Origin: Buxus sempervirens
Lineage: Eukaryota; Streptophyta; Magnoliopsida; Buxales; Buxaceae
DNA: 64,000 nt
Assembly (NCBI GenBank): GCA_947561395.2
Contig: OX387187.1
Span: forward strand, 38,979,829 to 39,043,828
Direction of reading: 5' to 3'
The notes under the pieces are model-generated. The model was given only the letters and a program-made list of their open reading frames with translations, was not told the origin of the DNA and did no database searches. Each line of letters opens with the position of its first letter. The first letter of the stretch is position 1. Shown piece by piece: positions 27,301-64,000 of this stretch. A program made the translations under genes and the position numbers.

Positions 27301-30300
27301 TTGTCCACTTCCTTTTTGTTTCTTTTTCCTTTTTCCAATCTTTGCTTTTTGGCTGATTTTATTCGTACCATATAATATATAGAATAATTGCAAAGAAAAG
27401 CTTGCTTGTTTGATGATATTCTTTGTGTAGGATGATGTGTCCGAAAAGGAATTACAAATGGTGCCCGGAGTCTTCTCAAAAGATTTATGTCAGTCTAATG
27501 TTGCTTTACCAAGTCATGAAGAATCTGCCAGAGCCAATTCAGTAAAAACTGAATTTCCCTATGTTCAAGATGATGAAGCTTGTCTGAAGGAATCAGCCGA
27601 ACTGACTGAAGCATGCATTGGAAATGGTTTTCTAAGGAGGCATGTCTTTGGATGTGATGGTGACTTAATATTTACATTATTTCATTTCTATGTACCCAAT
27701 TTGGAGTTAAACCTTTATCTGTCAATGTTTATAGATTCCCTGCGGAGGAGAGATCAATTATTTCGCATTTATTCCATCAATGGGCAAAGAAGAAAGCATT
27801 TCGAGACCCAAAGAGGTTGCTTAACAAGGTGGCATAAATACACATTATTATTATCTGCTGATGTTTGTGTCATTGTACAGTAATTATTCTTTTATTGTAG
27901 GAACCTGGTAGTTTACTTGACTCTTGTGTGTGGGATGTTGTAGCATCTCCGTGTTGTTCTTTGTCCGAACACATGTTTTTATGTTACAAGAAAATGAGAT
28001 GAAATTTACTCGTTCTTTGTGCTTGTTGTTGGAGATTAATTTCCTAATTCACTATAAGAATTAACATTTCCTTGCTTTTTCTCTCTTTGTGACATTTAAC
28101 CAAGGGACCATGCTCAAGTTTTAAATTCAATACAAAATTAGTAGGGGTTGAGATATTTGATAGAGATAGTCCTTTTTCTCAAGTACGTATGTGTGTGTGG
28201 TTAGTTGTAATGTGCCGAAGATATATCAATTTGTTTAATGCATACAATTTCCAATTTAGGGTCATGTGTATGTGTATTTACATACATACATCCATTCTAA
28301 CACACACACATATAAGATATATATATATACATATCTGTGTTGTTTTGATCTTATTTGTTTTTCTCTTTTGATGGTTGCATTAGGCATTTTATCAATCACT
28401 TTTCCATCATTTCAATGCATCATTGATTACCAAGAGAGAAAAAAAGAAAAAAAAAATAATACAAGGGTCGTATTCCAAGTGGTGTTATATTGTGAATGAT
28501 GGGTGTGTAAGGCTTTCTGTAGAAGGCCTGCTATTTTGGAATTTGGTCCCTCTTGTCATCTATTGGGATATTCGAATGGAAAGGAAGAATCATATTTTTG
28601 AAGGTCAAGATACTGCCTCCTTGGAAGATTTACAACACAATCAGCATGCTTATAATGGATTGTTGAACATTGTTTAAATAGTTCCTCGAGATACATCTGC
28701 TCCTTAAGTACCTGTGATGCAGGGCAGCCCTAGAAATAGTTGGAGTCTCACCAACCCTTACGAGGGCTAGGTAATGACGTCTCACCACGACTAAGTAATA
28801 TATCCTTGAAAAGATTGGAGTCTAACCAATACTCGAGTCTCACCATTTTCAGGTAATGGAGTCTCACCACTACCAAAGAACAAGAGGAGTCTCACCTTAA
28901 GAACCCAGTACAAAAATTATGCTTATTCCCTACTCAAAATAGAAGATTATGTGGCTATTTATAAACACAGTTCCCTATGTTCAATCAAATTCTGATCCTA
29001 CTCAATTTGAAAAAAAATCTAATATTTATCTTAAAAAGCATATCCTAATTAAACTATAACTCTACTTGGGCATGGAGTATGGACTGGCTTTCTGGGCCAT
29101 ATTTACATAAAGTTGGTTCTAATAATTTGAAGTGGGCATATGCCATTGGAGATCTGGTTAATTTCTGTTTATGAGTCACAAAATGTTCTTGAGGGTCTCA
29201 TAAAGCCAACATTTATTAAATAGAACCAGCAATCATGATTTTTTTTTCATAATTGTTTTTTTAATTTATATTTATTTTAAGATGTTTTTTTTTCTTGTAG
29301 TTACATTTGTTATCATAAATCTTATAAATGTATTTTTCCATTTTTTTTTTCAATTCAAACTTACAAGTTACAACAATTTTCGCATTATTTGAAACATAGG
29401 AATTTTTTTCCTGTTTACTCTTTTCCGTTAAACTGAATTTATATTTTCCAGGTTGGCTTTGTGGTTGATGAACGGTTGAGAATCAAGGCTAGCAAAAACA
29501 AGGTTTTGCAACTTCTACATTCCCAATAATGCTTTTGCTTGTTTCTCTAAATGTCGGTTTTTAATTGTCATCAGTTGTAGTCTGTGTTTCTCTCTCTCTT
29601 ATATAAATTGTTATACTCTAGCATTCTAGGTACTTTTTCATATTTATCCATTGCTTTCAATTACCGCACTTGTATAGATGTCATTAACTTGATTATGTAT
29701 TAGATCAGTATATTCTAGAAGTCTAATTATTCCGGGTGAATAGGAGCTGATGGATAGGTAACTTCTTGTAGATTAGTTCCAACTTAATTGATTGTGATGC
29801 TACCTTTGTATAATTCCCCAATATGATACGGTGACTCAACTTTCTGAAGAGCCTATTTGTAGTATTTTTAAAGTAAAGCTATTTTCTATTATGGCTCTAA
29901 AAATGGGACTTTGGGTAAAAAGCTGTGTATTAGCTGAATCAAAAACCTTGATAACTCTTGAGGTCCCCTTTGATTTTTAGGCAGATGTGCAAGTTGATTA
30001 TTTATTAACTTGATATTAGTACACTTCAGTCCATATGGAATGGAAAGTTGCTCTAACATATATGATTCGTAATTCATATGTTGTTTTTCTTTGAACTTGT
30101 TGGGTGTCAAAACCAATATCAAATTATCAATTATTGATAACAGCCATTACTAAAATGGCTATCTTAAAATATATTGGTTGCAAGACCATAGATGATGACA
30201 TTCGAAATAAGACTAATTGAAAGTCCAATATTGGCTCATTCATAATAAGTTAGGGACTCCGTTATGCTCTAGATTAGATAGGTGTCTTACATTGGGCTTG

Positions 30301-33300
30301 TGGGATAATCTCTTCATGCCAATTGTTCAAATGGTTCTTCTGAGACCAGTCTCTGATCATTCTCCAGTGTTTTTGTCTAATGACCCTATGCAGGGTGGTC
30401 CTACCCCATTCCATTTTGAAAATATGTGGCTGTCCCATCACTCTTTCCAGAATCTTATGGAGGGATGGTGGGGTGAAGGAAGAAATGCAGTATCGGGGTG
30501 GGCAGGATTTAGGTTTATGGGGTGTTTGCGAGAGGTCAAAATTAAAATAAAGGGGTGGAATAAGGAAAGTTTTGGAAGAGTGGAGATTCAGAAAAAGGAG
30601 GCTATGGATGGGCTAGCGGCCTTGGATTTTAAGGAAGTGGGGATTGGGGGCCCCAAGATAGGGGAAGAAGATTGGAGAGGTTAAAGATTCCTTGGAAAGG
30701 ATTTTGAAATATGGGGAAACTCATTGGAGACAAAAATCAAGGCTTAAATGGTTAAAGGAGGGAGACGGGAATACAACCTTTTTGCATAGGATGGCGAATG
30801 GGAGAAGAATCAAAAACACAATCACGTGGTTGGAGGTTGATGGCAGAAGTATTGAGGATAGTGAGGAAATTGGATAGTCCCTCTATCAATTTTATGCCAA
30901 TCTTTACAAATCTAAGCAAGAATTGTGTTTCAAATTAAAGGAGAATGATCAATCAAAGGTGTGCGAGGTGATGAATGGGTGGATTGAAATAGAGTTTGAG
31001 GTGGAGGAGATTAAGGAAGCAATATGGGAGATGGAAGGAGATAAGGTGCTCGGGCCCGATGGATTTACAATTGAATTTCTTAAGAAAAATTGTGAGATTG
31101 TCAAGGATGATTTGCTTAAGATGTTCCAAGAGTTTTTTTAGGAATGACATTATTCATAAGGCTGCAAATGCGACCATCGTTGTCCTAATTCCTAGAAAAG
31201 TAGGGGCAATAGGGGTTAAGGATTTCAAGCCTATAAGTCTAACCAGTAGTGTTTATAAGATAATAGCAAAGGTATTGCCAGTTAGGTTAGAAAAGGTGTT
31301 GCCAAAAATTATCTCTTTGAATCAAAGTGCCTTTGTGGAGGGGTGTCAAATCATGGATTGTGAGTTAATTGCAAATGAATGTGTGAAAAGCAGGAAGAGG
31401 TTTGGGGAGCCAGGAGTAGTGTGTAAATTGGATATTGAAAAGGCGTATGACAAAGTGGAGTGGGGTTTCATATACTCAGTGTTGAGATGGAAAGGATTTG
31501 GTTAGCGGTGAAGGAGGTGGATTCATGGTTGTTTGGGAAATGTTCACTTCTCTATATTGGTAAATGGAGTGATGAGAGGGTTTTTCCCATCTTCTAGGGG
31601 TATTCAGCCGGGGGATCCGCTATCCCCCTTCTTATTCACTTTGGTAGTTGAGGTGTTGCATTGTTTTTTCATGATTGGTAGGAGTCAAGGCTTGATCAAA
31701 GGTTTCAAGGTCAGAAGAGATGTGGTAACAATATCTCACCTACAGTTTGCTGATGATACCTTGGTGTTCTTGGAAGCATCTAAGGATCAAATGATTTGGT
31801 TGCAGAGTATATTGCACACATTTCATATGGTCTCAAGTCTGAAGGTTAATTGGAAGAAGAGTTCCTTAGTGGGATTGAATCTAGGGGAGGAATAATCACT
31901 GTCTTTTAGTTGGATTTTAGGTTGTTAGGTGGGTTCTTGGCCGATGTTGTATCTAGGTCTTCCTCTAGGTGTGTCCCCTTGTAATGTCAGTTTTTGGGAG
32001 CCGGTCATTGAGAGAGCTGAGAAGAGACTGGCATTATGGAAGAGGAATTACTTATTTTTAGGGGGTAGGGTAATCCTAATTAAAGCAGTGCTTGCAAATA
32101 TTCCGGTCTATTTTATGTTTTTGTTTAGGATGCCTGGAAGAGTTGTGGACATTATTGAAAAAGCCCAAAGGGGTTTTCTGTGGGAGGGTGGGCGAGAAAG
32201 AAAGACTCATTTAGTAAGGTGGGAAAAGGTGTGTCTGGAAAGGAAGATGGGAGGAATTGGTTTGGGCAAGATAGCCCATCGAAACTCCTCTCTTTTAGGT
32301 AAATGGTTGTGGCGTTTCGGCACAAAAAAGGAAAGTTTGTGGCATCAAGTGATCGCAAGCAAATATGGAAGTAATGATAATGGATGGTTCATAAACGTGA
32401 GGGCACGAGCTTCACAAAATTACCCGTGGAAGGCCATTATGAGACTAGCACCTTTGTTTTACCCTCATGTTGGATTGAGCATTGAATTTGGCTCATCTGT
32501 TCATTTTTGGCATGACCAGTGATGGGTTAATCAGACGTTATCTAGCCAGTTTCCTCGGTTATTTTCCCTTGCTCTTCATCCTAATGCATGGCCGATACCT
32601 TGCCTTGGTCTTCTTCTGGTTCATCTTGGAATCTTCCATTTTGGAGGAATCTTCATTGTCTAGAATTGGAAGAGATAATCTTGCTCATTGATGGTTTAAA
32701 GGATGTGATTCTTGATCCCCTAGGTTTTGATAAGATATTATTGTGGCTTTCGTCCAATAGATTGTACTCTTGCAAATCTTTTTTCAATTTGATCACGCAT
32801 AGCTCATCACATCCCAGGGTGTCCTCGGTATATCAGCTATGGAAGCCTAAGGTTCCTCTTAAGATTAAAGCTTTCTTATGGATTGCCATCTTATATAGGA
32901 TAAACACGGTTCATCAAATTCAAGAAGATGGAAAATAATTGCTTTATCCCCACATGTGTGCTTTATGTGTAGGCGAGATCATAGAACATCTTTTTGTTTA
33001 GTGTCATTTTTCCATTATTATTTGGATGTGGTTATTTGAGATGATCGGAGTCTCTTGGGTACTACTAGATACTCTTAGGGCATGGTTTGAGCAGTGGTGA
33101 GTTAGGGGCCTGGGTATGAGGGGGAACTTGTTGTATGATGCGTTATTCCGTGCAGTTGTTTGGCTCAATGGTTGGAGCACAACAGTAGGATCTTCAGGGA
33201 TGTTCAGTTATCGGTGGACCGGGTGTTTGATTCTATTTTGATTGCTGTATCATCGTGGGCATCGATTCTTCCAGAGTTCTAGGGTTTATGGGCTACAGAG

Positions 33301-52159: not shown

Positions 52160-53590
52160 CTTTGGTTCTTAAGATGAAACTGATTCATACAAAACCAAAA
52201 ACCAACACTAATAGTTTTACTAACATTTCTTAGTCTCACACTTTGGATTGTTCAGTGGAGGGGTGCTTCTAGGGTTTTTCGTGATTATTGTATTCCACTT
52301 AAATAAAAGGGTAAGTTCTATAAGACAACAATTTGACCGGCGCCTATATATGTCGTATATATGGAGCAGAATGTTGGGCAGCAAAGAACCAATATGTTCA
52401 AAACTCAATGTTGGGCGTAATGTTTCTAATATCCTTTTATATAGTATATGCTACCCTGCATTATTATTTAAAACTCAACTTGGAATGACAAACATGAACT
52501 AAATGAGCTGTTATCTAATAGTTATGAACACATGTGCTTCTTTACAAGTCCTGCAAACAACATACACATCTTCTGTTGTTCATAGATTCAACAAACATAT
52601 AAAAATCATCCAAAATATTTGCATTACTGCTCTCTAATAGCAACTCAATTCCCAAATGCCAAACAAAACAACACGGAAAAAACCCTTCCCTGCTAAGGCA
52701 CTAAAATAAAAAATCCAAAGCAAAAAGTTCTAGGTCTCCCCAACTAATCTCAATCATTTGCCTAGCACAACTTCACAACAAAAAGACATGCAGACACCAT
52801 CTTTATAAAATTGAAAAACTAATTTCAGATACTAATCATAATGCCAAACATGAATGGGCCCTCGAAAACAGATTGTGAGAGCCCATAAGCAGAACTTCCA
52901 GAATATGCACTAAAAACTTTGCTGACACCAAAGTGCTCCCTGATATAAAGGGAAAAGAATGATACGTTATTAAGATATCAATCCGTCCATGCTTTTTGTT
53001 TTTTGGGATGAAAAAATCCATCCACGCTTCAAAATAAGATATGTCACATATCTGCACGCCAAAATGAACACTTTCATACTTCAACAATTATCTTATGGCA
53101 TCTAATAATTTTGTTTCAATCATTGAACAATACAAATAGGAAGAAATTGCATCAAAGCTCACTACAAAAGCTGATTAATTCCTAAAATTTACAGTGAAAT
53201 ACTAATATCCAATGTAAATGCTTCATACAATGCCATGTCTGCAACAAATACCAAATATACATATATATATCTAAGTTATAGTGACAACAAGAATTTATAG
53301 GATTATTACTAAGGATTTCACTAAAATAGGATTCTTACTTCATGGTGGCAACAATGTAAAAGAGAACCTAGTGACAATGACAACTATCCCATGCAAATTA
53401 GGTAAGCCTCCTAGAATAAATGCATTAGAGTTCACTACAAAAAGCTAATTAAATAAACTTAGCAACAAAATATGTATTGTATTCCCAGAATTTACAGCAA
53501 AATACTACTATGCAATGGATGTAAATGCTAGACTTGTTTTTTTTTTTTTTATCGGTATGTAAATGCTTCATATTGCAAACATAGAACTCA
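52160..53590. other. Intergenic or intron, nothing recognised
   Basis: AT-rich sequence with no protein motif. If the ankyrin gene is real this could be its first intron. Confidence 0.4.
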
Positions 53591-53744
53591 CAAAGGCTAA
53601 CAACAACTTCAGTACAATAGGAATCTTACTTCATTGTTGAAACAATGTAAAGACATACAAGTTGATACAAAGGCTAACAACAACTTCAGTACAATAGGAA
53701 TCTTACTTCATTGTTGAAACAATGTAAAGACATACAAGTTGATA
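53591..53744 (+). repeat. 77-bp perfect tandem duplication
   Basis: The unit CAAAGGCTAACAACAACTTC ... ACATACAAGTTGATA occurs at 53591 and 53668 with no mismatch seen. Confidence 0.92.
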
Positions 53745-54297: not shown

Positions 54298-54310
54298 GAT
54301 CAAAGGCAAG
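54298..54310 (+). repeat. LINE target-site duplication, left copy
   Basis: GATCAAAGGCAAG, directly before the T-run of the LINE. Matches 61038-61050 exactly (15 bp if the following TT is counted). Confidence 0.95.
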
Positions 54311-54492
54311 TTTTTTTTTTTTTTTTTTTTTTTAAGAAAAACCCACTAAGGCAGGAATAACCTTAGTGGCACTCCAACGGTGGGAGGAGGGCTGAGGCAG
54401 ACCCTGACCTGTAGATTAATTCCAAAGAAATTGATACACAATCACGGGGGGGACTTGAAGCCTTACCCCTGGAAAACAATAAGATAAATAAA

Positions 54493-57400
54493 TTATTTCC
54501 TAAATGCATACAATCCTGATCGATCAAGAAACAAGCAACCTTTTACTTTAGAAGAAAGGATTCCTTGTGACTCAAAAATATATTTGGAAGTGTTTTCACA
54601 GCCTTCATTTGCAAGCGCATCCGCAACAGCGTTAGCTTCTCTATAAATGTGGTGCACTATCCGATTTTGGATACTAAGTCTTCCTTTAATTTCTTGCCAC
54701 CAGATCATAAACTTCCATGGGATGGAAGCCTTTCCGTTGACCATGTCAACAAGAATTTTTGAATCTGTCTCAATAACCAGCTCTTGTAAACCGAAGCTAT
54801 CAGCCAATCGGAGACCATCCCTTAAAGCAAGAAGCTCAGCCATGAGATTAGATTGAAACCCATAATTAGCAGAAAAAGCAACAAGAAATAAACCTGAATT
54901 GTTTCGAATTACTCCTCCACCACCAGAAATTCCTGGGTTCCCCTTAGATGCCCCGTCCACATTTAAGATAAACGCAGGTGCCCTTTGCCGTAACCAACGA
55001 ACAATCTGAAGTCTTCTGGCTCTGATATGTGGGGAATATAACAACAGTTGCTCAAGAACTAAGACTCCTTGGGGCTTGCAATTCCGAGTAGGTTTTGTAA
55101 GATAAGCAATCTCTTGAAGCCAACGATAGACCTTGCTTGTTATTTGCTCTTTTAGCATTGGCGCATCTTCAAATCTGCTATTGCATCTGGCTAGCCAAAT
55201 CTCCCAACAGATTAAGAGAGGAGTTGCTTTTAAAAGAAGACCATATTGATCATCAAGATGCCCACTAAACCAGAAAGAAATTTTAGTGGCTAGATCATGC
55301 AAAGGATGAAATTGGAATTTGAAACAATTAGCAAAATATTCCCAAACAAAACTTGCAATTTCCCCAAACGAAAATAGATGATTCAAAGTCTCCAAATTTT
55401 TGGATGTGCAACAATTGCATTGAGAGCAAAGTTGAATGCCACTAGCTGTAATTCTGTCATCTGTAGGCAGCTCCCCATTCAAAAGCTTCCAAAAGAATAC
55501 TGATATCTTTTTAGGAATGTGGTTAACCCAAATGCTTTTACTCCAAACACAATTATTACCAAATTTTCTGATGAGATTCCAAGCAGATGAAGTGGAAAAA
55601 ATACCTGATGACGATGGCTTCCAAAGCGGCTTGTCCTTGAGATTGGATAGCCGAAATTGAATTTCCAAGAGCTGAGAGTTGATATCAGGAGGGAGGACGC
55701 CATTTAGAAGGCCCACATTCAAAGAACCAGTCGGGTTGAGCATATCTGAGACCCTTGCTTCAGCAAGAGGAATGTCTTCATCTTGGACCAACTCAGATAA
55801 TTTTCCTAGATGGGACCAGTGATCAAACCAAAAGCTTATTTTACCTTCTTCTATGGACCAGGCTGTGTTTTCAAGAATGGCCTCTTTCACCTTTAGGATT
55901 GATTTCCATATCTTAGAACTACCACTTCTATCTTGAAGATTCTGAAGATTCCCCGAAGCACAATACTTTGCCCTCATAAATTCAGACCATAAACTATCTC
56001 CATGCAAGGCCTTCCAACCCATTTTTATTTGCAAGCTTTTCATAACATCTGAAACCGATTTTATGTCCAGACCACCTTCTGATTTAGGAAGACAAATCTT
56101 CTCCCATCTTAACCAATGCTTTTTAGGACCATGATCAATACTCTCCCCCCAGAAAAAATTAGCAAATAACCCTTCAATTCTTTTCAAGACGACTTTAGGG
56201 AAAGGAATGGCAGACAAAGTATGAATGTGAATACTTGAGAGGACACTTTGGATAAGTGTCACTCTCCCACCATGGGAAAGAGTTTTGGATTTCCAGCCAC
56301 TAATCCGTTTTTGAATTTTTTCTAAGATTTCAGAAAACATAGGCGTCGAAGAACGACCATGGAAAAGAGGAGCACCCAAATATTTGATAGGCAAACTAAC
56401 TTTTCTGATTCCTGACATCGATTGAAGCATGGCCAACCGAGAACTAGAAATTCTTGAAGAAGAAATCAAACCGCTTTTGGACTTGTTCACCAATTGGCCC
56501 GATGCTTCCTCATAAGTCTTGATGAAATTCAAAAGATTATCAAGGGAAGATTTCTTACCATTTGTAAAGACAAGGATATCATCAGCAAAGAGGATGTGAG
56601 TCACTTTAAGAGGTGTTCTGCCAGAGTGATAGAAACCAATAGAACCTTCCTGGACCATTGAGAACAAACCTCTGCTAAAAACTTCTTCAGCAATGATGAA
56701 TAACAAAGGAGAAAGAGGGTCTCCTTGCCTTAGACCTCTGGAGGATTTAAAGAAACCACACGCCCTGCCTTTAAGAAGAACACTAAACCAGCAGTTGTTT
56801 AAGCACCGAGAAATAAGATTACACCATGATTCAGAGAATCCATACCTTCTGCAAACCTCTATAAGGAAATCCCACTCCATTCTGTCGAATGCCTTTGCCA
56901 TGTCAAGCTTAATAATAATATTACTCCCCAGACATTTTCTGTTGATATCCTGGCATAATTCATGTGCAAGAGATATACTATCCGAGATGCTTCTCCCTTT
57001 GACAAAAGCACTTTGTTCTCTACTGATAATGTTAGGAAGAATAACAGAAAGCCTTGTTGCCAGAATTTTTGAGATTACCTTGTAAGAATAGTTGCATAGA
57101 CTGATTGGACGAAAATCTGAAAAAGATTCGGGGTGATCCACCTTGGGAATGAGAGCTATATGAGAAGCAGTAAAGGAGGTAGGAAGCATTCTATCGTGGA
57201 AGAACTCAGAAACAGCCGCCTCTAGATCATCCGCTATGATTTCCCAACAACTCTGATAAAACCATCCTGTAAAACCGTCAGGGCCTGGAGCACTATCAGG
57301 GTCAAGCTCAAAGACTGCTTGTTTTATTTCCTCCCTGGAAGGATTGTCAGTGAGTTTCTCATTCATATTCTCATTAAGAATTTTGGGGATGTAACCCAAA

Positions 57401-58638
57401 CTGTCATTTATGCAATGGGGAGCCGAGGTGAAACAGTTAGAGAAAAAAGTGATTGCTTCATCTTTGATATTCTGGTTATTATTAAACCACTCACTACCAT
57501 TCATCCTCTGTTTATGCTTACGAATCTGAAGAGAGGCATGGAAAAAGTTTGAGTTCCTATCCCCGTCTTGTAACCATTTAACTCTGGATTGCTGTCTATA
57601 AAGGATCTCTTGTTGGGATATGCTTTTGATGAACTCTTTCTTATTGAGATGAAGAGAGTCTGCACTTTGCTGATTCCATTGTGTCTGTAAGATATTTTCC
57701 AGCTCAGAAATTTTCAAAGAAAGATTCTTTATTCTAGTGTGAACATCTCCAAATACTTCCCAATTCCATTTCCGGAGAGCTGCTCTCAATTGCTTCAACT
57801 TTCTTGAAAACACAAACATTGGAGAGCCCATAGTATTAGCATGCCAGTTGGACTTGACAAAGTCAGAGAAATCATGGTGAGAAGTCCACATCTTCTGGAA
57901 TTTGAACATAGAATGTCCTTGATTCCCAGATGCATGAGCAACAGTTAGAAGGATTGGGCTGTGATCTGAGCAAACCCGAGGAAGATGCAATACCTTGAGA
58001 GAATCCAATAAATTAAGACCCTGATGATTAATCAAAAATCTGTCTAACCGAGCCCAAATTCTTCTTTGACCGGCCTGCTCATTACACCAAGTGTATTTAT
58101 CTCCATGGAATCCCATATCCTTTAATCCTGCACATTGAATGAAGTCCTGGAACTCTTGCATCGATCTATTTTCTGGATTTCTCCCACCTTTTTTGTCTTC
58201 CACAGATAGAATTGCATTGAAATCTCCCCCTAGAACCCAAGGAAGGCTAACAGTACTTGAGAAACTCAGCATCTCTTGCCAAATTTGTCTTCTCTCCAGC
58301 ACATCACATTTAGCATAGATGAAAGATATTAAATAAGGAGAAAAAGAAGCATTATTCCCTGGACTTACAAGAGCAGTAATGTATTGTTCAGAAACAGTTA
58401 TGAAGTCCAAATTCAAGATATCAGACCAGAAAATCCAGATTTTGCTAATTTGATGTTGACTACTAAAATAGTTCTTCATTTTAATCTTCTTTGCTACCTT
58501 TTTGCACCTGTCAGTTGTACACATCGGCTCAAGAATTGCTAGAAGCTGGATTTTGTTTGAGGCTACATGAGACTTTAACATGTTTATAGAATCTGAGTTT
58601 GCCACCCCTCTTATATTCCATATCATTGTGTCAATCAT
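54493..58638 (-). CDS. LINE ORF2: endonuclease, reverse transcriptase, RNase H
   Basis: 1381 aa, unbroken. AP-type endonuclease at the N-terminus: MIWNIRG (Asn8), ILEP (Glu37), VLGGDFNAIL about 135, VCSDHSPIL about 225. Reverse transcriptase: GPDGFTG, ALIPKV, DFRPISLCN, KLDMAKAFDRMEW, GLRQGDPLSPLLF and the catalytic FADD near 683. A zf-RVT region follows (WVNHIPKKISVFFWKLL, then a CSQCNCC...LNHLF cluster near 1050-1080). A C-terminal RNase H domain has NVDGASKGNPG (about 1228), MAELLALRDGL, ETDSK (about 1291) and REANAVADALA, so all four acidic residues are present. It makes target-primed cDNA copies; plant L1-type elements with an added RNase H are known. Its ATG overlaps the ORF1 stop. Confidence 0.95.
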   Translation of the reverse strand: MIDTMIWNIRGVANSDSINMLKSHVASNKIQLLAILEPMCTTDRCKKVAKKIKMKNYFSSQHQISKIWIFWSDILNLDFITVSEQYITALVSPGNNASFSPYLISFIYAKCDVLERRQIWQEMLSFSSTVSLPWVLGGDFNAILSVEDKKGGRNPENRSMQEFQDFIQCAGLKDMGFHGDKYTWCNEQAGQRRIWARLDRFLINHQGLNLLDSLKVLHLPRVCSDHSPILLTVAHASGNQGHSMFKFQKMWTSHHDFSDFVKSNWHANTMGSPMFVFSRKLKQLRAALRKWNWEVFGDVHTRIKNLSLKISELENILQTQWNQQSADSLHLNKKEFIKSISQQEILYRQQSRVKWLQDGDRNSNFFHASLQIRKHKQRMNGSEWFNNNQNIKDEAITFFSNCFTSAPHCINDSLGYIPKILNENMNEKLTDNPSREEIKQAVFELDPDSAPGPDGFTGWFYQSCWEIIADDLEAAVSEFFHDRMLPTSFTASHIALIPKVDHPESFSDFRPISLCNYSYKVISKILATRLSVILPNIISREQSAFVKGRSISDSISLAHELCQDINRKCLGSNIIIKLDMAKAFDRMEWDFLIEVCRRYGFSESWCNLISRCLNNCWFSVLLKGRACGFFKSSRGLRQGDPLSPLLFIIAEEVFSRGLFSMVQEGSIGFYHSGRTPLKVTHILFADDILVFTNGKKSSLDNLLNFIKTYEEASGQLVNKSKSGLISSSRISSSRLAMLQSMSGIRKVSLPIKYLGAPLFHGRSSTPMFSEILEKIQKRISGWKSKTLSHGGRVTLIQSVLSSIHIHTLSAIPFPKVVLKRIEGLFANFFWGESIDHGPKKHWLRWEKICLPKSEGGLDIKSVSDVMKSLQIKMGWKALHGDSLWSEFMRAKYCASGNLQNLQDRSGSSKIWKSILKVKEAILENTAWSIEEGKISFWFDHWSHLGKLSELVQDEDIPLAEARVSDMLNPTGSLNVGLLNGVLPPDINSQLLEIQFRLSNLKDKPLWKPSSSGIFSTSSAWNLIRKFGNNCVWSKSIWVNHIPKKISVFFWKLLNGELPTDDRITASGIQLCSQCNCCTSKNLETLNHLFSFGEIASFVWEYFANCFKFQFHPLHDLATKISFWFSGHLDDQYGLLLKATPLLICWEIWLARCNSRFEDAPMLKEQITSKVYRWLQEIAYLTKPTRNCKPQGVLVLEQLLLYSPHIRARRLQIVRWLRQRAPAFILNVDGASKGNPGISGGGGVIRNNSGLFLVAFSANYGFQSNLMAELLALRDGLRLADSFGLQELVIETDSKILVDMVNGKASIPWKFMIWWQEIKGRLSIQNRIVHHIYREANAVADALANEGCENTSKYIFESQGILSSKVKGCLFLDRSGLYAFRK

Positions 58639-60140
58639 TAAGACGATTTGATAAAATTAGAAGATGAGGTCTTTACCTTGGACCTTGTGGTAATGCCTGA
58701 TGCAGAGTTAATATGATTCTTCTTTGAAGTCTGAATCGGTGAGGCCAACTGATTGTTATCTCTCTGAGAAATTTCCAAATTACGATCCAGCGAATTAAAG
58801 GCAAGATCCACTCGTTTTGACAAAGCAACTTGGTCCCTTAATAAGGATATCTTAGCATCATTCAAGGATAAATGTCCCTTAACAGAATTTGCCTTAACCG
58901 AATCCAAAGTAAGAGCTTGGATTAAAGAATCTGAATATATGTACTGCGAGAGATCTACAATGAGGTTTCTTTCTAATGTGTTTGAAGACTGCTCATTCCT
59001 TCCTTCTTCAACATTTGTCCTTGTTTCTATATCCTTTTCAACTTCCTTGTGGGATTGCTCCAAGAGACCATTCTCGAGATTTCTTATCTGCTCCTCTTGG
59101 ATTCCTTCTGAAATCTGTTCGGTGCCACTTGACTCAAAAAATATTGGATTTTGCTGTTGTGTAATCTTCTCCGTTGAAACAGGTGGTGGACATTCTTGCT
59201 GGTTCTCGACGGCTTCTTTCCCAGATGTAATAATCTCATGAGAATCCTCTAATGAAGGCCATTTATCAAAAACCCCAATGCTCCTATACTGCTGCTGAGG
59301 AAAATCAAGGCCATCTTCTAATGAAGGACATTTTTCAAATACCCCAACACGCCTATACTGCTGTTGTGGAATTTCTGTTGATTTTTTCTTCAATGCAATT
59401 CTACAGCTTGAAACATCATGCCCACGATGAGAGCAGCCTGTGCAATAAGGAGGAACCTTCTCGTAGAGTATATGTTGCCATCTTCCATACTCAGATCCCA
59501 TCCGTATCCAGATTTTTGTTGGGTGCTCCTTTAACAGGTCCAATAAAACACAGACTCTTGCTAAGCTTGGTCTAGTTAAGCTTCTTGTTGGGCCATCAAC
59601 TGCCAGAGGTTTACCAACAGCTCCTGCAATGGAGAAGAAAAAAGATTCAGAGAATAAATTTATTGGAAGGTTGGGCAAAGATATCCAAACCGGTACTAGT
59701 GAAGACTCTTTAGATGGATCAAATCTCATGTTCCATTGAAATAAACGAAACTGAATCCCCTTGATAGATAGGTTCTCTCTCGTCCATGCTCTAATGAAGT
59801 CTTTCTCCTCTTTGAAAAGAAATAACAAGTGCCGGTTGTCCAGCACTCCAACATGAAACCTATCTTGCAAGCCCCAAGATTTTTGAATGGTGTCTCGAAC
59901 CACATCCACCGAAGGTCTACCATTGATAAACTTTGCTACCAAAGTGTGGACAAAAGGGTTAATGGACTTCTTGATTTCAACGTCTGAAAACTCCACTGCT
60001 GGGAAGCCATGGAAGCTTGTTACTGCTTTTCTTGGGATAGAGATTTCTTCAACTTCAAGCGGAGAGCCTGCTACAACAGAAGCAAAAGTTCTCTTGTCTG
60101 GAGGAACCGAGGAAGAGCCACCTTGAAGGTTGACTGCCAT
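58638..60140 (-). CDS. LINE ORF1: DUF4283-type RNA-binding protein with zinc knuckle
   Basis: 500 aa. Residues about 60-200 have the DUF4283-like fold seen in plant LINE ORF1 (VAKFINGRPSVDVVRD, HLLFLFKEEKDFIRAW, FRLFQWNMRFDPSKE, VWISLPNLPINLF, GKPLAVDGPT). A CCHC knuckle follows (YCTGCSHRGHDVSSC, C-x2-C-x4-H-x4-C), then a low-complexity acidic/polar tail. After the knuckle there is a 23-residue tandem duplication, PQQQYRRVGVFEKCPSLED then PQQQYRSIGVFDKWPSLED (DNA period 69 bp, 59248 and 59317). The protein is expected to bind the LINE RNA. The ATG at 60140 is the first in a good context after the GC-rich array. Confidence 0.92.
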   Translation of the reverse strand: MAVNLQGGSSSVPPDKRTFASVVAGSPLEVEEISIPRKAVTSFHGFPAVEFSDVEIKKSINPFVHTLVAKFINGRPSVDVVRDTIQKSWGLQDRFHVGVLDNRHLLFLFKEEKDFIRAWTRENLSIKGIQFRLFQWNMRFDPSKESSLVPVWISLPNLPINLFSESFFFSIAGAVGKPLAVDGPTRSLTRPSLARVCVLLDLLKEHPTKIWIRMGSEYGRWQHILYEKVPPYCTGCSHRGHDVSSCRIALKKKSTEIPQQQYRRVGVFEKCPSLEDGLDFPQQQYRSIGVFDKWPSLEDSHEIITSGKEAVENQQECPPPVSTEKITQQQNPIFFESSGTEQISEGIQEEQIRNLENGLLEQSHKEVEKDIETRTNVEEGRNEQSSNTLERNLIVDLSQYIYSDSLIQALTLDSVKANSVKGHLSLNDAKISLLRDQVALSKRVDLAFNSLDRNLEISQRDNNQLASPIQTSKKNHINSASGITTRSKVKTSSSNFIKSS

Positions 60141-60199
60141 TGGAGAGAAAGACGCCCCTTCTCAGAAGAAAAGGCGCCTCTCTCAAGCCCTGAACCTCC

Positions 60200-60960
60200 G
60201 TGAACCTGCCTGAGGCTGCGACAGAGACTCAGGTGGCGCTGCAGGAGACGCTACAGAGTCCCAGGTCGCAGGTCGCAGGGCCGCCTTGCCTCGAGAAGAA
60301 ACCCCAGGTCGCAGGAAACCTCTCCTCCCAGGTCGCGGGTCCCCTCGCCCCAGGGCGCAGGTCTTCTCTCCGCAGGTCACAGGACGCCTCTCCGCAGGTC
60401 GCCTCTCCCCAGGACGCAGGTCGCGGTTCTCCTCTCCGCAGGTCGCAGGTCCTCTCCGCAGGTAGCCTCTCTGCAGGTCGCAGGTTCTCCGCAGGTCCTC
60501 TCCGCAGGTTCGCCGCAGGTTCTCGCCGCAGGTTCGCCGCAGGTTCTCGCCGCAGGTTCTCGTCCCAAGTCCTCTCCGCAGGTTCGCCGCAGGTTCTCGC
60601 CTCTCCCCAGGACGCAGGCCGCAGGTCCGCCTCGCCGCAGGTCCTCTCCGCAAGTCACAGGTCCTCTCCGCAGGTCGCAGGTCTCCGCAGGTCCTCTCCC
60701 CTAAGGTCTCCGCAGGTCTCCGCAGGTCGCCGCAGGTCGCCGCAGGTTCGCCTGGCCGCAGGTCGCCGCAGGTTCGCCTCGCCGCAGGTTCGCCTCGCCG
60801 CAGGTCGCCGCAGGTTCGCCTCACCGCAGGTCGCCGCAGGCCTCCGCAGGTTCGCCTCGCCTCCGCAGGTTCTCGCCGCAGGTCGCCGCAGGCCTCCGCA
60901 GGTTGCCGCAGGTTCGCCTCGCCGCAGGTCGCCGCAGGCCTCCGCAGGTTCGCCTCGCCT
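60200..60960 (-). repeat. CpG-rich tandem array forming the LINE 5'UTR
   Basis: About 36 copies of CCGCAGG (CCTGCGG on the LINE strand) by eye, separated by 2-8 nt such as TTCG, TCG, CCT and TTCTCG; longer units like CGCAGGTTCGCCTCGC recur. GC content is far above the rest of the window and CpG is dense. The array lies between the LINE 5' end (61037) and ORF1 (60140), inside the TSDs, so it is part of the element. By position it is analogous to the monomer arrays of mouse L1 promoters; promoter function is inference. Long open frames over it on both strands come from the absence of stop codons in the repeat. Confidence 0.93.
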
Positions 60961-61037
60961 ATAGATCAACCTAGTTCCTATATCCTATTAGGTTTCTTCT
61001 TCTTTGTCATGAATCATTCAAACGACAAGTGAGATCC

Positions 61038-61050
61038 GATCAAAGGCAAG
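61038..61050 (+). repeat. LINE target-site duplication, right copy
   Basis: GATCAAAGGCAAG at the 5' edge of the minus-strand LINE, identical to 54298-54310. Confidence 0.95.
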
Positions 61051-61180
61051 TTCCAACTCAGCACTATTGTTGGAAGTTGATTCTACAATAAAGGGAAGAG
61101 AAGGAGACATTTGAGCTGGGCATATAGGGAAGGAGACGTTTGAAATTCCAACTCAGCACTATTGTTGGAAGTTGATCCTA
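61051..61180 (+). repeat. 95-bp-spaced repeat with TTCCAAC/GTTGGAA inverted core
   Basis: TTCCAACTCAGCACTATTG followed by TTGGAAGTTGAT occurs at 61051 and 61146, and once left of the LINE (54260). TTCCAAC and GTTGGAA form an inverted repeat around an 11-nt loop. ACAATAAAGGGAAG follows two copies. TGTTGGAA and TTCCAACA-type ends are common in Copia LTRs, so this may be an eroded LTR region. Confidence 0.7.
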
Positions 61181-61467: not shown

Positions 61468-61571
61468 GCATGAATATTTATCTCAAATTAATTAAAGCAT
61501 TAAAAGAATTTGTTTTCTTCAAACCATTAGGAAAGGTAATCAAAGCATGAATATTTATCTCAAATTAATTA
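61468..61571 (+). repeat. 27-bp direct repeat before the Copia gag frame
   Basis: GCATGAATATTTATCTC + AAATTAATTA occurs at 61468 and 61545. The gag frame opens inside the second copy, so a small duplication may have rebuilt the upstream junction. Confidence 0.85.
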
Positions 61572-64000
61572 AGAGAATTTGTGATGAATTATTTGCTATG
61601 CACAAACCTGTCTTCGATAGAGACAAAGTTTTTTGGACGATTAATGGCCTTGGACAAAGGTTCGATAGCTTTGTAGATGCTATCATGGCTCGACCACCTC
61701 TTCCCACATTCAGTCAACTCTCTGCTTCGTTGCTTGCCCTAGAGCAACGAACACCGATGAACAACTCCGAAAAAATGGAAGTACAGGAACATCAAGCCTA
61801 TGTTGGACAAAGACAAGCTCAAAGCAATAAGGGAAGTAGAAACTGGAATCAACCCTTTGATTCCAAGGGACGTGGTTTCCCTCAAAATGGTCAACGTCAA
61901 ACTCAAAATCCTCGTCAACCATTAAATCTACCTGCAGAAAATGAAAAAAAGGAAGAACGATACAACAATCGTCCTCAGGAAAGAGATAATCAGAACCTCC
62001 AGAAATCATACAACTTGACTATACCTGTCTGCCAGATTTGCAAGAAACTCGGACACAAGGCAATACGATGCTGGTATCATTTTAATCACACCTACCAACT
62101 AGAAGAAATTCCCCAAGCTTTAGCAGCTATGACCATAACTGATCCTAGTGATCCCGAATGGATCCCTGACACTGGTGCTACATCTCACATGACCAATACT
62201 ACAGGTAATCTTTCTACTGCTTCTCCTTATCATGGATCATATAAAATATTGATAGGTGATGGAAATACTTTGACCATCTTTCATATTGGAAGGACCACAC
62301 TTTCAACAACACATGGTGTTTTACAATTAAAGGATGTGTTGGTTGTACCACATATTACTAAAAATCTCTTATCTGTTAGTCAATTATCTTCTGATTCTTC
62401 ATGTATTTTTGAATTTAACTCTAATGGCTTTTGTGATTAAGGATCAGCAGACAGGGACAATCCTAGGGAAGGGAACTAGAGACGGCGGCCTCTACAAACT
62501 AACAAGGGAATCACCAATGGCAGCTCTATACTCCAATCGGCAAAGAATTGCTTCTGAGGAAATTTGGCACAAAAGGCTTGGCCATCCCCAATCTAGAGTT
62601 TTATCTCTTTTACACTCCAATAATCTTATTTCTGTTACTTCTTGGAATAAAACTAACTCAATATGTCCTAGTTGTCAGTTGGGAAAAAGTAGTAAGCTTC
62701 CTTTTGTGACTACCTTTACTCATTCTGACCAACCTTTTGATAAGATCCATTGTGATCTTTGGGGTCCTGCACCTCTCACATCTATACAAGGTTTCAAATA
62801 CTATGTCTCTTTTGTAGATGATCACACACGGTACACATGGCTATGCCCTCTCAAATACAAATCTGATTTTTCCGAATGCTTCCACAATTTTATCACTATG
62901 CTTGAAACTCAGTTTCAAGCAAAAATAAAGGTTTTTCAAAGTGATGGAGGGGGTGAATTTGAAGATAATGGGTTTAATAACCTTCTTCTTAAAAAGGGCA
63001 TAGTAAGACAAATATCATGCCCAAAGACCCCGGAACAAAATAGCATAGCAGAATGGAAACATTGTAACATTGTAGAGTTCGGACTCTCGATCAATGCTAT
63101 TTCATAGTGGCCTGCCAAAAACTTATTGGTTTGAAGCTTTCAAAACTGCTATTTTTCTAATTAATCGGTTACCTTGAAGAATATTAGAAATGACCTCACC
63201 TTTTAAACTCTTATTTGGAAAACATCCAGATTACACGTCTCTTAGAGTCTTTGGTTGTAGGTGTTACCCATACTTGAGAGATAATGGGAAAAATAAATTT
63301 TCTCCAAGATCCCTCCTGTGCGTATTTATTGGATATAGCACTATCCATAAAGGGTACCAGTGTCTTTTCCCTACAACTGGACGTGTTTATATCTGTAGAC
63401 ATGTTATTTTTGATGAAACAGTGCTACCCTTTTCCAACACTCCTAATGATAATCCCATCTCTCACAATACCAACATGGAGCTTTATTCCTATGAAGAATG
63501 GGATTGCAATAATGTGACCACTGATACACCACACAACAACACCCAAGTTGTACCCTTCACAATCCATGAGGGTGAAATCATTGAGACTAACATTACACCT
63601 GAGACCCAAAGGCAATCGCCAATTCATGAACCTATCTCTCCGGTTAATGGTGAACCGAATAGTATGAACCACTCAAAACGTCAAGAACTTGATCCTAGTC
63701 ACCCGACTCAAGGGAATGGTCCATCCGATGCCCTCTCAACACCAAACATGAGTTTGGATGAACACATTAAAACGGGTAGTTTGGTGAATGATCTTGGGCC
63801 CCTTATTGACACCTCTATCCCAAACTCAAGCACTATGTTGACTCAACTCCATCCCACCACCGGACAATATTTTGGACTCAACACTCATCCCATGAAAACA
63901 AGAGGGAAAACCCAAGCCGGGCTAACCCATTCGGTCATAAGATCACCTCTTATTCCCATCGAGCCTAGCAATATTCAAGTTGCTCTTAAGCATCCTGGCT
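61547..64000 (+). mobile_element. Ty1/Copia element, decayed, cut by the window edge
   Basis: Gag remnant with SFVDAIMARPPLPTF and knuckle CQICKKLGHKAIRC (about 62030), protease DTGATSHMT (about 62168), GAG-pre-integrase EIWHKRLGHPQ and CPSCQLGKS (HHCC), then the integrase core with HCDLWGPAP, FQSDGGGEFEDNG and PEQNSIAEWKH (D-D-E). The protease-before-integrase order is the Copia signature. Breaks: a one-base shift in TTTT near 62425-62430, a second shift near 63090, and a TGA at about 63178. From 63184 the C-terminal integrase frame (LFGKHPDYTSLRVFGC, FIGYS) continues to the edge. Reverse transcriptase lies beyond 64 kb. The gag N-terminus is missing or altered. Not functional as it stands. 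Confidence 0.9.

Follow-up and report, generated by a model that had tools for sequence, protein, structure and literature searches.

The LINE and its surroundings

The window, a stretch of 64,000 nucleotides of Buxus sempervirens DNA, contains a full-length plant L1-type LINE on its minus strand (54313–61037), with both ORFs open and flanked by a target site duplication (TSD) of 15 bp (Table 1). LINEs of the plant L1 clade encode an ORF1 with a DUF4283 domain and an ORF2 with reverse transcriptase, zf-RVT and RNase H-like domains. All of these are found here: ORF1 contains DUF4283, and ORF2 matches the Pfam domains RVT_1, zf-RVT and RVT_3, with an additional endonuclease match under Pfam's cut-off. 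The element also has the poly(A) tail and TSD of the clade, and the TSD sequence, GATCAAAGGCAAGTT, is identical at 54298–54312 and 61038–61052. The inverted repeat in the 3' UTR (54343–54369) is possibly a recognition element. No relatives were found in viral contigs.

Several other features of the region were observed. Within ORF1 (59244–59371) there is a direct duplication of 59 bp, with copies 85% identical and 10 bp apart, that yields two PQQQYR..PSLED repeats. The LINE is inserted within repeats, with CAACTCAGCACTATTGTTGGAAGTTGAT on either side of the insertion site, and Copia-type gag and integrase frames (61547–63107) adjoin it. A perfect 77-bp tandem duplication is found at 53590–53744 on the 3' side of the LINE. 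A second, broken LINE is located on the plus strand at 30268–32519, and its protein is approximately 34% identical to ORF2 across 467 residues.

Table 1. Features of the LINE and its flanks (coordinates are those of the window).
Feature	Coordinates	Strand	Basis
5'-side TSD of LINE	61038..61052		15 bp identical to 54298–54312
SAUR (auxin-induced) gene piece, sense, 80 nt: last codons, stop, 3' UTR	60957..61036	-	78/80 identical to C12 locus L012; PF02519
Tandem array, CCTG-headed units including 36 CCTGCGG	60234..60956	-	GC ~0.70, CpG o/e ~0.93
ATG-proximal conserved block, tether-like	60195..60275	-	matches in sister clades that have other arrays, and in a LINE whose ORF1 DNA is only 59% identical
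RNA hairpin, 18 bp	60145..60184	-	~ -30 kcal/mol in window copy; 4 nt from ORF1 ATG
ORF1, 500 aa, DUF4283	58638..60140	-	open frame and domain match
ORF2, 1381 aa: endonuclease (weak match), reverse transcriptase, zf-RVT, RVT_3 (RNase H-like)	54493..58638	-	open frame and domain matches
3' UTR inverted repeat, 9-bp arms CCACTAAGG/CCTTAGTGG, beside poly(A)	54343..54369	-	identical letters in five relatives
Poly(A) tail	54313..54333	-	sequence
3'-side TSD of LINE	54298..54312		exact 15-bp copy of 61038–61052

The SAUR-derived tip

An earlier note on this DNA had taken the stretch up to 61037 as the 5' region of the LINE, made up largely of repeat units. That reading stands for the array (60234–60956) but not for the 80 nt at 60957–61036, which are derived from a SAUR gene; position 61037 is a single extra base outside this piece. 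Elsewhere in the genome, the sequence adjoining the 5' TSD is matched only twice, and both matches fall in a single stretch of contig C12 (98% across 80 nt, 92% across 50 nt). The 98% match corresponds to the last codons (DLTCRLNDS, stop) and the 3' UTR of a gene encoding an Auxin_inducible domain (PF02519, E 1.3e-22), and the two mismatches in the alignment are adjacent and fall at one CpG. The piece reads in the sense direction of the LINE, and three nucleotides at the junction (GGC) are assignable to either side. The other six copies of the subfamily do not have this tip.

Sequence of a host transcript, presumed to be transcribed because it belongs to a gene, is thus found in sense inside the TSDs, and judged from the sequence the window copy is a SAUR mRNA–LINE chimera, in which the 3' end of a host gene is fused onto the 5' end of a plant LINE. 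The reverse transcriptase may have switched templates at the shared GGC, leaving the LINE RNA for a SAUR mRNA, or the RNA may have been recombined beforehand. A template jump is favoured over 5' transduction from a LINE that once lay downstream of the SAUR gene. Transduction is unlikely: the sense orientation and the internal junction are also compatible with read-through, but there is no match to a LINE ORF or to the array in the 9.5 kb around the SAUR gene, the only two other matches to the tip in the genome both lie in that C12 stretch, and three nucleotides are shared at the junction. What the tip itself demonstrates is limited to the joining of a foreign 5' end to the element.

Units and composition of the array

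The array contains 36 exact copies of CCTGCGG (CCGCAGG on the plus strand), compared with a mean of 0.18 and a maximum of two in 1000 composition-shuffled copies, in agreement with the earlier note's figure of about 36 CCGCAGG-type units. Every one of the 36 CCGCAGG occurrences on the plus strand of the window lies inside the array, and CCTGCGG occurs on that strand once, at 27739. A total of 56 CCTG-headed units are found across the 897-nt 5' UTR. The unit length is not fixed. The spacing between the starts of successive CCTGCGG motifs ranges from 10 to 44 nt, and CCTG-headed units within the array measure 7–29 nt. The array proper spans about 0.72 kb, and the 93 nt between it and the start of ORF1 (60141–60233) are unrepeated. 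The distal (high-coordinate) half is the most homogeneous part, and the long distal array carries CCTGCGGCGA.

Between 60200 and 60948 the GC content is 0.70 and the observed/expected CpG ratio 0.93, versus 0.41 and 0.40 in ORF1 and 0.39 and 0.33 in ORF2. The dense CpG and the contrast with the rest of the LINE that had been noted from the letters are thus borne out.

Two other roles for the array were considered and rejected. Long open frames occur on both strands, with no ATG-started frame seen in the sense array, and they are best regarded as a by-product of repetition. A structural role for the array RNA is disfavoured by its folding, which is less stable than that of dinucleotide shuffles (z +3.2; 20 of 20 shuffles at least equally stable).

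Association of the array with the LINE family

We searched the 5' UTR against the window's own 676-Mb genome using a search that skips simple repeats, and identified 29 matches including the window copy. The majority (23 of 29) end no more than 15 nt from an ORF1 start, where the ORF1 starts were taken from at least 65 ORF1 matches (40 of 175 candidates scored). Of the six others, one was read (L061, C3:7.897M), and it is likewise the 5' UTR of a LINE. Because the matches adjoin ORF1 in this way and the one other that was read is also a LINE 5' UTR, the sequence evidence supports the array as the LINE family's own 5' UTR rather than a captured satellite.

The DNA 5' of ORF1 in other copies, a comparison proposed in the earlier note, gives a consistent picture. 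ORF1 starts were read at 27 loci (L020–L046, the window copy among them), and at 23 of these a GC-rich repeat UTR of approximately 0.2–1 kb lies immediately upstream. L043 retains 93 nt of the UTR with about one unit, and in L027, L033 and L046 no more than about 30 nt of the UTR is present. Ten remoter ORF1 matches (74–77% identity) have no counterpart among the 29 matches to the 5' UTR in the genome search. The array is documented for the LINE family of the window copy and for L061, but not for plant LINEs generally.

Array length within the window subfamily

The window copy belongs to a subfamily of seven copies whose ORF1 sequences are 97–100% identical. The number of CCTGCGG units differs between them (36, 19, 11, 10, 7, 4 and 2), and the window copy, with the longest array, is not typical of the subfamily. 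The arrays of all six close relatives align collinearly with the window array on its ATG-proximal side, starting at positions 132, 326, 348, 419, 451 and 500 of this array (809 nt). Array length tracks relatedness: the closer a relative is to the window copy by ORF1 distance, the longer its array (rho -0.94, six relatives; one-sided permutation p 0.008). When insertion age is approximated by terminal branch length, no significant relation to array length is seen (rho -0.54, p 0.21, n = 7), and growth is thus not proved via insertion age. Between the window copy and L021, ORF1 has four differences in 1480 sites, and the arrays differ by seven gap blocks and 132 extra distal (5'-side) nt. For length, polarity and 9-mer analyses L025 was counted without a 31-nt piece of non-array sequence with which it begins, and the array of L024 was taken as 532 nt in the polarity count and 521 nt elsewhere.

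TSDs of 10–16 bp were identified in six of the seven copies; the 3' end of L024 was not found in the piece examined. The 5' ends of L021, L022 and L026, as defined by the TSDs, lie directly in the array, and L023 starts about 20 nt ahead of its first exact unit, in an apparently degenerate unit. Beyond the subfamily, TSDs were identified in three of the six loci tried: L043 (9 bp), L044 (19 bp) and L045 (16 bp). In L021, L022, L023, L026 and L043, the 5' end set by the TSDs thus falls inside the array or at its edge. Other sequence makes up the first 38 nt or so of L045 and about 35 nt near the tip of L044. The search for TSDs and 3' ends was without result in L019/L028, L024, L027 and L033 (3' end found in three of seven tried).

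A search with the end of ORF2 (40 of 397 candidates scored) gave at least eight matches at 96% or more, which are members of the subfamily by identity; C4:51.28M, absent from this list, brings the count to at least nine. Two of the nine (C1:38616687 and C4:29.2M) have no counterpart among the listed ORF1-start matches, over 5.8 kb, versus seven copies that reach the UTR, each with a start point of its own and all within 0.5 kb of array. The 5' ends in the array are therefore more clustered than truncation along 5.8 kb predicts, unless the enzyme stalls there.

Distal units and polarity in sister clades

Clades were defined from trees of ORF1 and neighbouring sequence: the window subfamily (seven copies), L037–L041, L034/L035/L042, L031/L032 and L044/L045. 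A tree of ORF1 alone was used as well because L024 and L030 had long branches in the first tree, probably from unrelated downstream sequence. L046 was left out of both trees. The distal units were compared in 19 copies (7 + 5 + 3 + 2 + 2), leaving out L028, L029, L030, L036, L043 and the array-free loci. For this comparison L040 was cut by hand to 700 instead of 812 nt, and L038, in which the GC-based edge ran into other sequence with N, to 800 nt.

CCTGCGG is found in the distal array of all seven subfamily copies versus none of the 12 copies of the four sister clades, which have CGACTG-type distal units above an alignable ATG-proximal block. CGACTGAG is present in all four sister clades. CGACTGTG is commonest in L037–L041 and occurs once each in L044 and L045; CCTGGGCGACTG is commonest in L034/L035/L042 and occurs once in two copies of the L037–L041 clade; and CGACTGCTGG is restricted to L031/L032. 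The fraction of distal 9-mers shared is 0.61–1.00 within clades, 0.02–0.11 between the window subfamily and the rest, and 0.20–0.37 among the rest. The corresponding values for the proximal 150 nt are 0.52–0.97, 0.11–0.19 and 0.22–0.64. From these fractions the array of the window subfamily appears sharply its own, and those of the sister clades appear to be related variants of one another.

The arrays are also polar. Of 19 copies, 16 are more self-similar in the half away from ORF1 (17 when the first edges are used); the three contrary cases are L025, L030 and L038, the last with its edge misplaced. Together, the clade-specific distal units and the gradient in homogeneity support the gain of new units, mostly at the 5' side, although individual short arrays may still be truncated.

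The ATG-proximal block and hairpin

L061 (C3:7896650–7897149) belongs to a different LINE subfamily and has units of the same type immediately ahead of ORF1. Its ATG-proximal UTR is identical to that of the window copy at 73 of 89 positions (82%), compared with 202 of 344 (59%) in the first 344 compared bases of ORF1. The same contrast is found with ten other copies (UTR 67–83%, ORF1 57–59%), and it reflects either strong constraint on the ATG-proximal block or an exchange of 5' UTRs between subfamilies.

The hairpin preceding the ORF1 start codon is intact in six of the seven subfamily copies and in L028, and is broken in L023 (L033 was left out). The other clades do not have the inserted 22-nt piece that makes it. 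A hairpin ending four nucleotides ahead of the ATG would be expected to hinder scanning ribosomes.

CpG transitions

The ATG-proximal part is the only part of the array that can be aligned for a comparison of CpG transitions. Across seven aligned copies, the 300 nt immediately upstream of the ATG show 11 CpG-type transitions at 42 CpG positions (C or G) versus 14 at 158 other G/C positions. The numbers for ORF1 are 8 at 54 versus 30 at 564, and those for part of ORF2 (six copies) 3 at 26 versus 17 at 553. The per-position excess is approximately three- to fourfold in all three regions, although the counts are small, and it is as expected of methylated DNA. Since transitions are raised similarly here and in ORF1, the comparison suggests that methylation of the ATG-proximal array follows that of the LINE body instead of being a special case. 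The similar excess in all three regions also means that the high CpG content of the array is better explained by the renewal of units than by an absence of methylation.

Proposed function and alternatives

We consider it probable that the array, as the family's own 5' UTR, is an internal promoter composed of short GC-rich repeats, in which units turn over rapidly, the youngest lying distally, above a conserved tether. Promoter activity, start sites and the mode of unit addition are what we infer here. By analogy with mouse L1, each of the many units may permit initiation. If transcription starts inside the array, new copies would begin at varied units and yet retain some promoter. Gain and loss of units would be much faster than change in the ORFs, and the side away from ORF1 would be the youngest; clades would acquire different distal units because of this fast turnover at the side away from ORF1. 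Units may be added by slippage during DNA replication, or by slipping of the reverse transcriptase on its template during target-primed reverse transcription.

An improbable alternative is that the ancestral array had a fixed length and that the short arrays are 5' truncations produced during reverse transcription, perhaps by the enzyme falling off the GC-rich repeats. The array of every close relative is a proximal piece of the window array, as truncation would leave it, length has no significant relation to terminal branch length, and a GC-rich template is a plausible obstacle. However, truncation should be independent of relatedness, which array length tracks, and it cannot make the other distal units of the sister clades. 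The two copies without a listed ORF1-start match over 5.8 kb, against seven different starts within 0.5 kb of array, also argue against it. While the shorter arrays are possibly truncations, the distal units that differ between clades and the gradient in homogeneity speak for true gain.

It is similarly doubtful that the 5' UTR merely tolerates the array as a passive minisatellite, with promoter activity in the conserved ATG-proximal block alone. Between the window copy and L061, conservation is higher in this block than in ORF1, the distal units differ between the subfamily and its sister clades, and the array RNA has no structural signal, all of which would fit a passive array. However, 23 of 27 loci keep a GC-rich array despite the differences in units, which suggests that composition or repetition itself is kept.

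Finally, a captured GC-rich satellite with an independent existence would account for short, quickly varying repeats of a composition sharply unlike that of the element, but it is very improbable given that no array outside LINEs was found among the 23 ORF1-adjoining matches and the one other that was read, even if a search that skips simple repeats is not airtight; other copies with a different 5' UTR and a free array, which the earlier note had named as signs of capture, were thus not what the source genome revealed.

With the array as a probable internal promoter, a broader possibility can be put forward tentatively for plant L1 elements, namely that repeat promoters which renew themselves evolved in them independently of rodents. 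Short CpG-rich units would be added at the 5' side above the tether, unit types would be replaced lineage by lineage, the surplus of units would shield the promoter against 5' truncation, and array length would track the active lineage. We hold this broader proposal to be somewhat less likely than not to be correct, because the units of the sister clades are related variants and the remoter ORF1 matches have no match to the 5' UTR.

Comparison with known systems

Tandem repeats in L1 5' UTRs are already known from rodents and perissodactyls (PMC9022269, PMC6454616, PMC5872511). In the open-licence literature we recognized no tandem-array 5' UTR in a plant LINE; with subscription papers outside this scope, this is weak evidence of novelty. 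Celine, a centromeric LINE of poplar, resembles the Buxus LINE in its length of 6.1 kb, its DUF4283 ORF1 and its overlapping ORFs, and it has a 5' UTR of 635 bp. However, the available part of its description does not mention a tandem array in this 5' UTR (PMC11288735).

The mRNA–LINE-1 chimeras of mammals likewise carry host RNA at the 5' end of a LINE between the TSDs, and 17 human cases with mRNA or lncRNA sequence are reported (PMC13174262). The mammalian chimeras often join at splice sites of 5' exons, whereas the Buxus chimera contains the 3' end of the SAUR gene.

The L1 5' UTRs of perissodactyls are also GC-rich (49.9–68.8% GC), two types have tandem repeats, and new 5' UTRs have been recruited repeatedly (PMC5872511). 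These are mammalian elements, however, and their repeats are few (three in ancestral type 1; PMC5872511). The VNTR of SVA and LAVA elements consists of short GC-rich units (30–50 bp) that form lineage-specific arrays and expand, as in the Buxus LINE (PMC4432496). However, SVA and LAVA are non-autonomous composites with a central array, and their expansion was attributed to microhomology events in DNA, not to reverse transcription (PMC4432496).

In the 5' UTR of mouse L1Md (A, Tf and Gf subfamilies), tandem units also lie upstream of a tether (PMC9022269, PMC6454616). The Buxus LINE has this layout, a 5' tandem array with a tether beside ORF1. In both systems the tether is more widely shared between subfamilies than the monomer or unit, extension is upstream, and copies start at various points of the array (PMC9022269, PMC6454616). 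Younger mouse subfamilies have more monomers (PMC9022269); mouse arrays are extended upstream, and the duplication of monomers is said to help promoters survive a retrotransposition process prone to truncation (PMC6454616). The likeness to mouse L1 monomers drawn in the earlier note holds in layout, in units that differ between clades and in the longer arrays of closer relatives. However, the mouse units are about 200 bp long and those of the Buxus LINE only 7–29 nt. The Buxus LINE is moreover a plant L1 with a DUF4283 ORF1, and the likeness is one of layout, not of sequence comparison. The array would therefore at most work like a mouse monomer array, and it is not a member of that type.

If true, a mouse-like layout in a plant L1 would be a case of convergence, with units roughly one-tenth to one-twentieth as long and with unit types that vary among the clades of a single genome. 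The window subfamily provides a natural series, from 2 to 36 CCTGCGG units above an ORF1 that is 97–100% identical. Such an array would allow one to ask what purpose the repetition serves, be it protection against truncation, promoter strength or escape from silencing.
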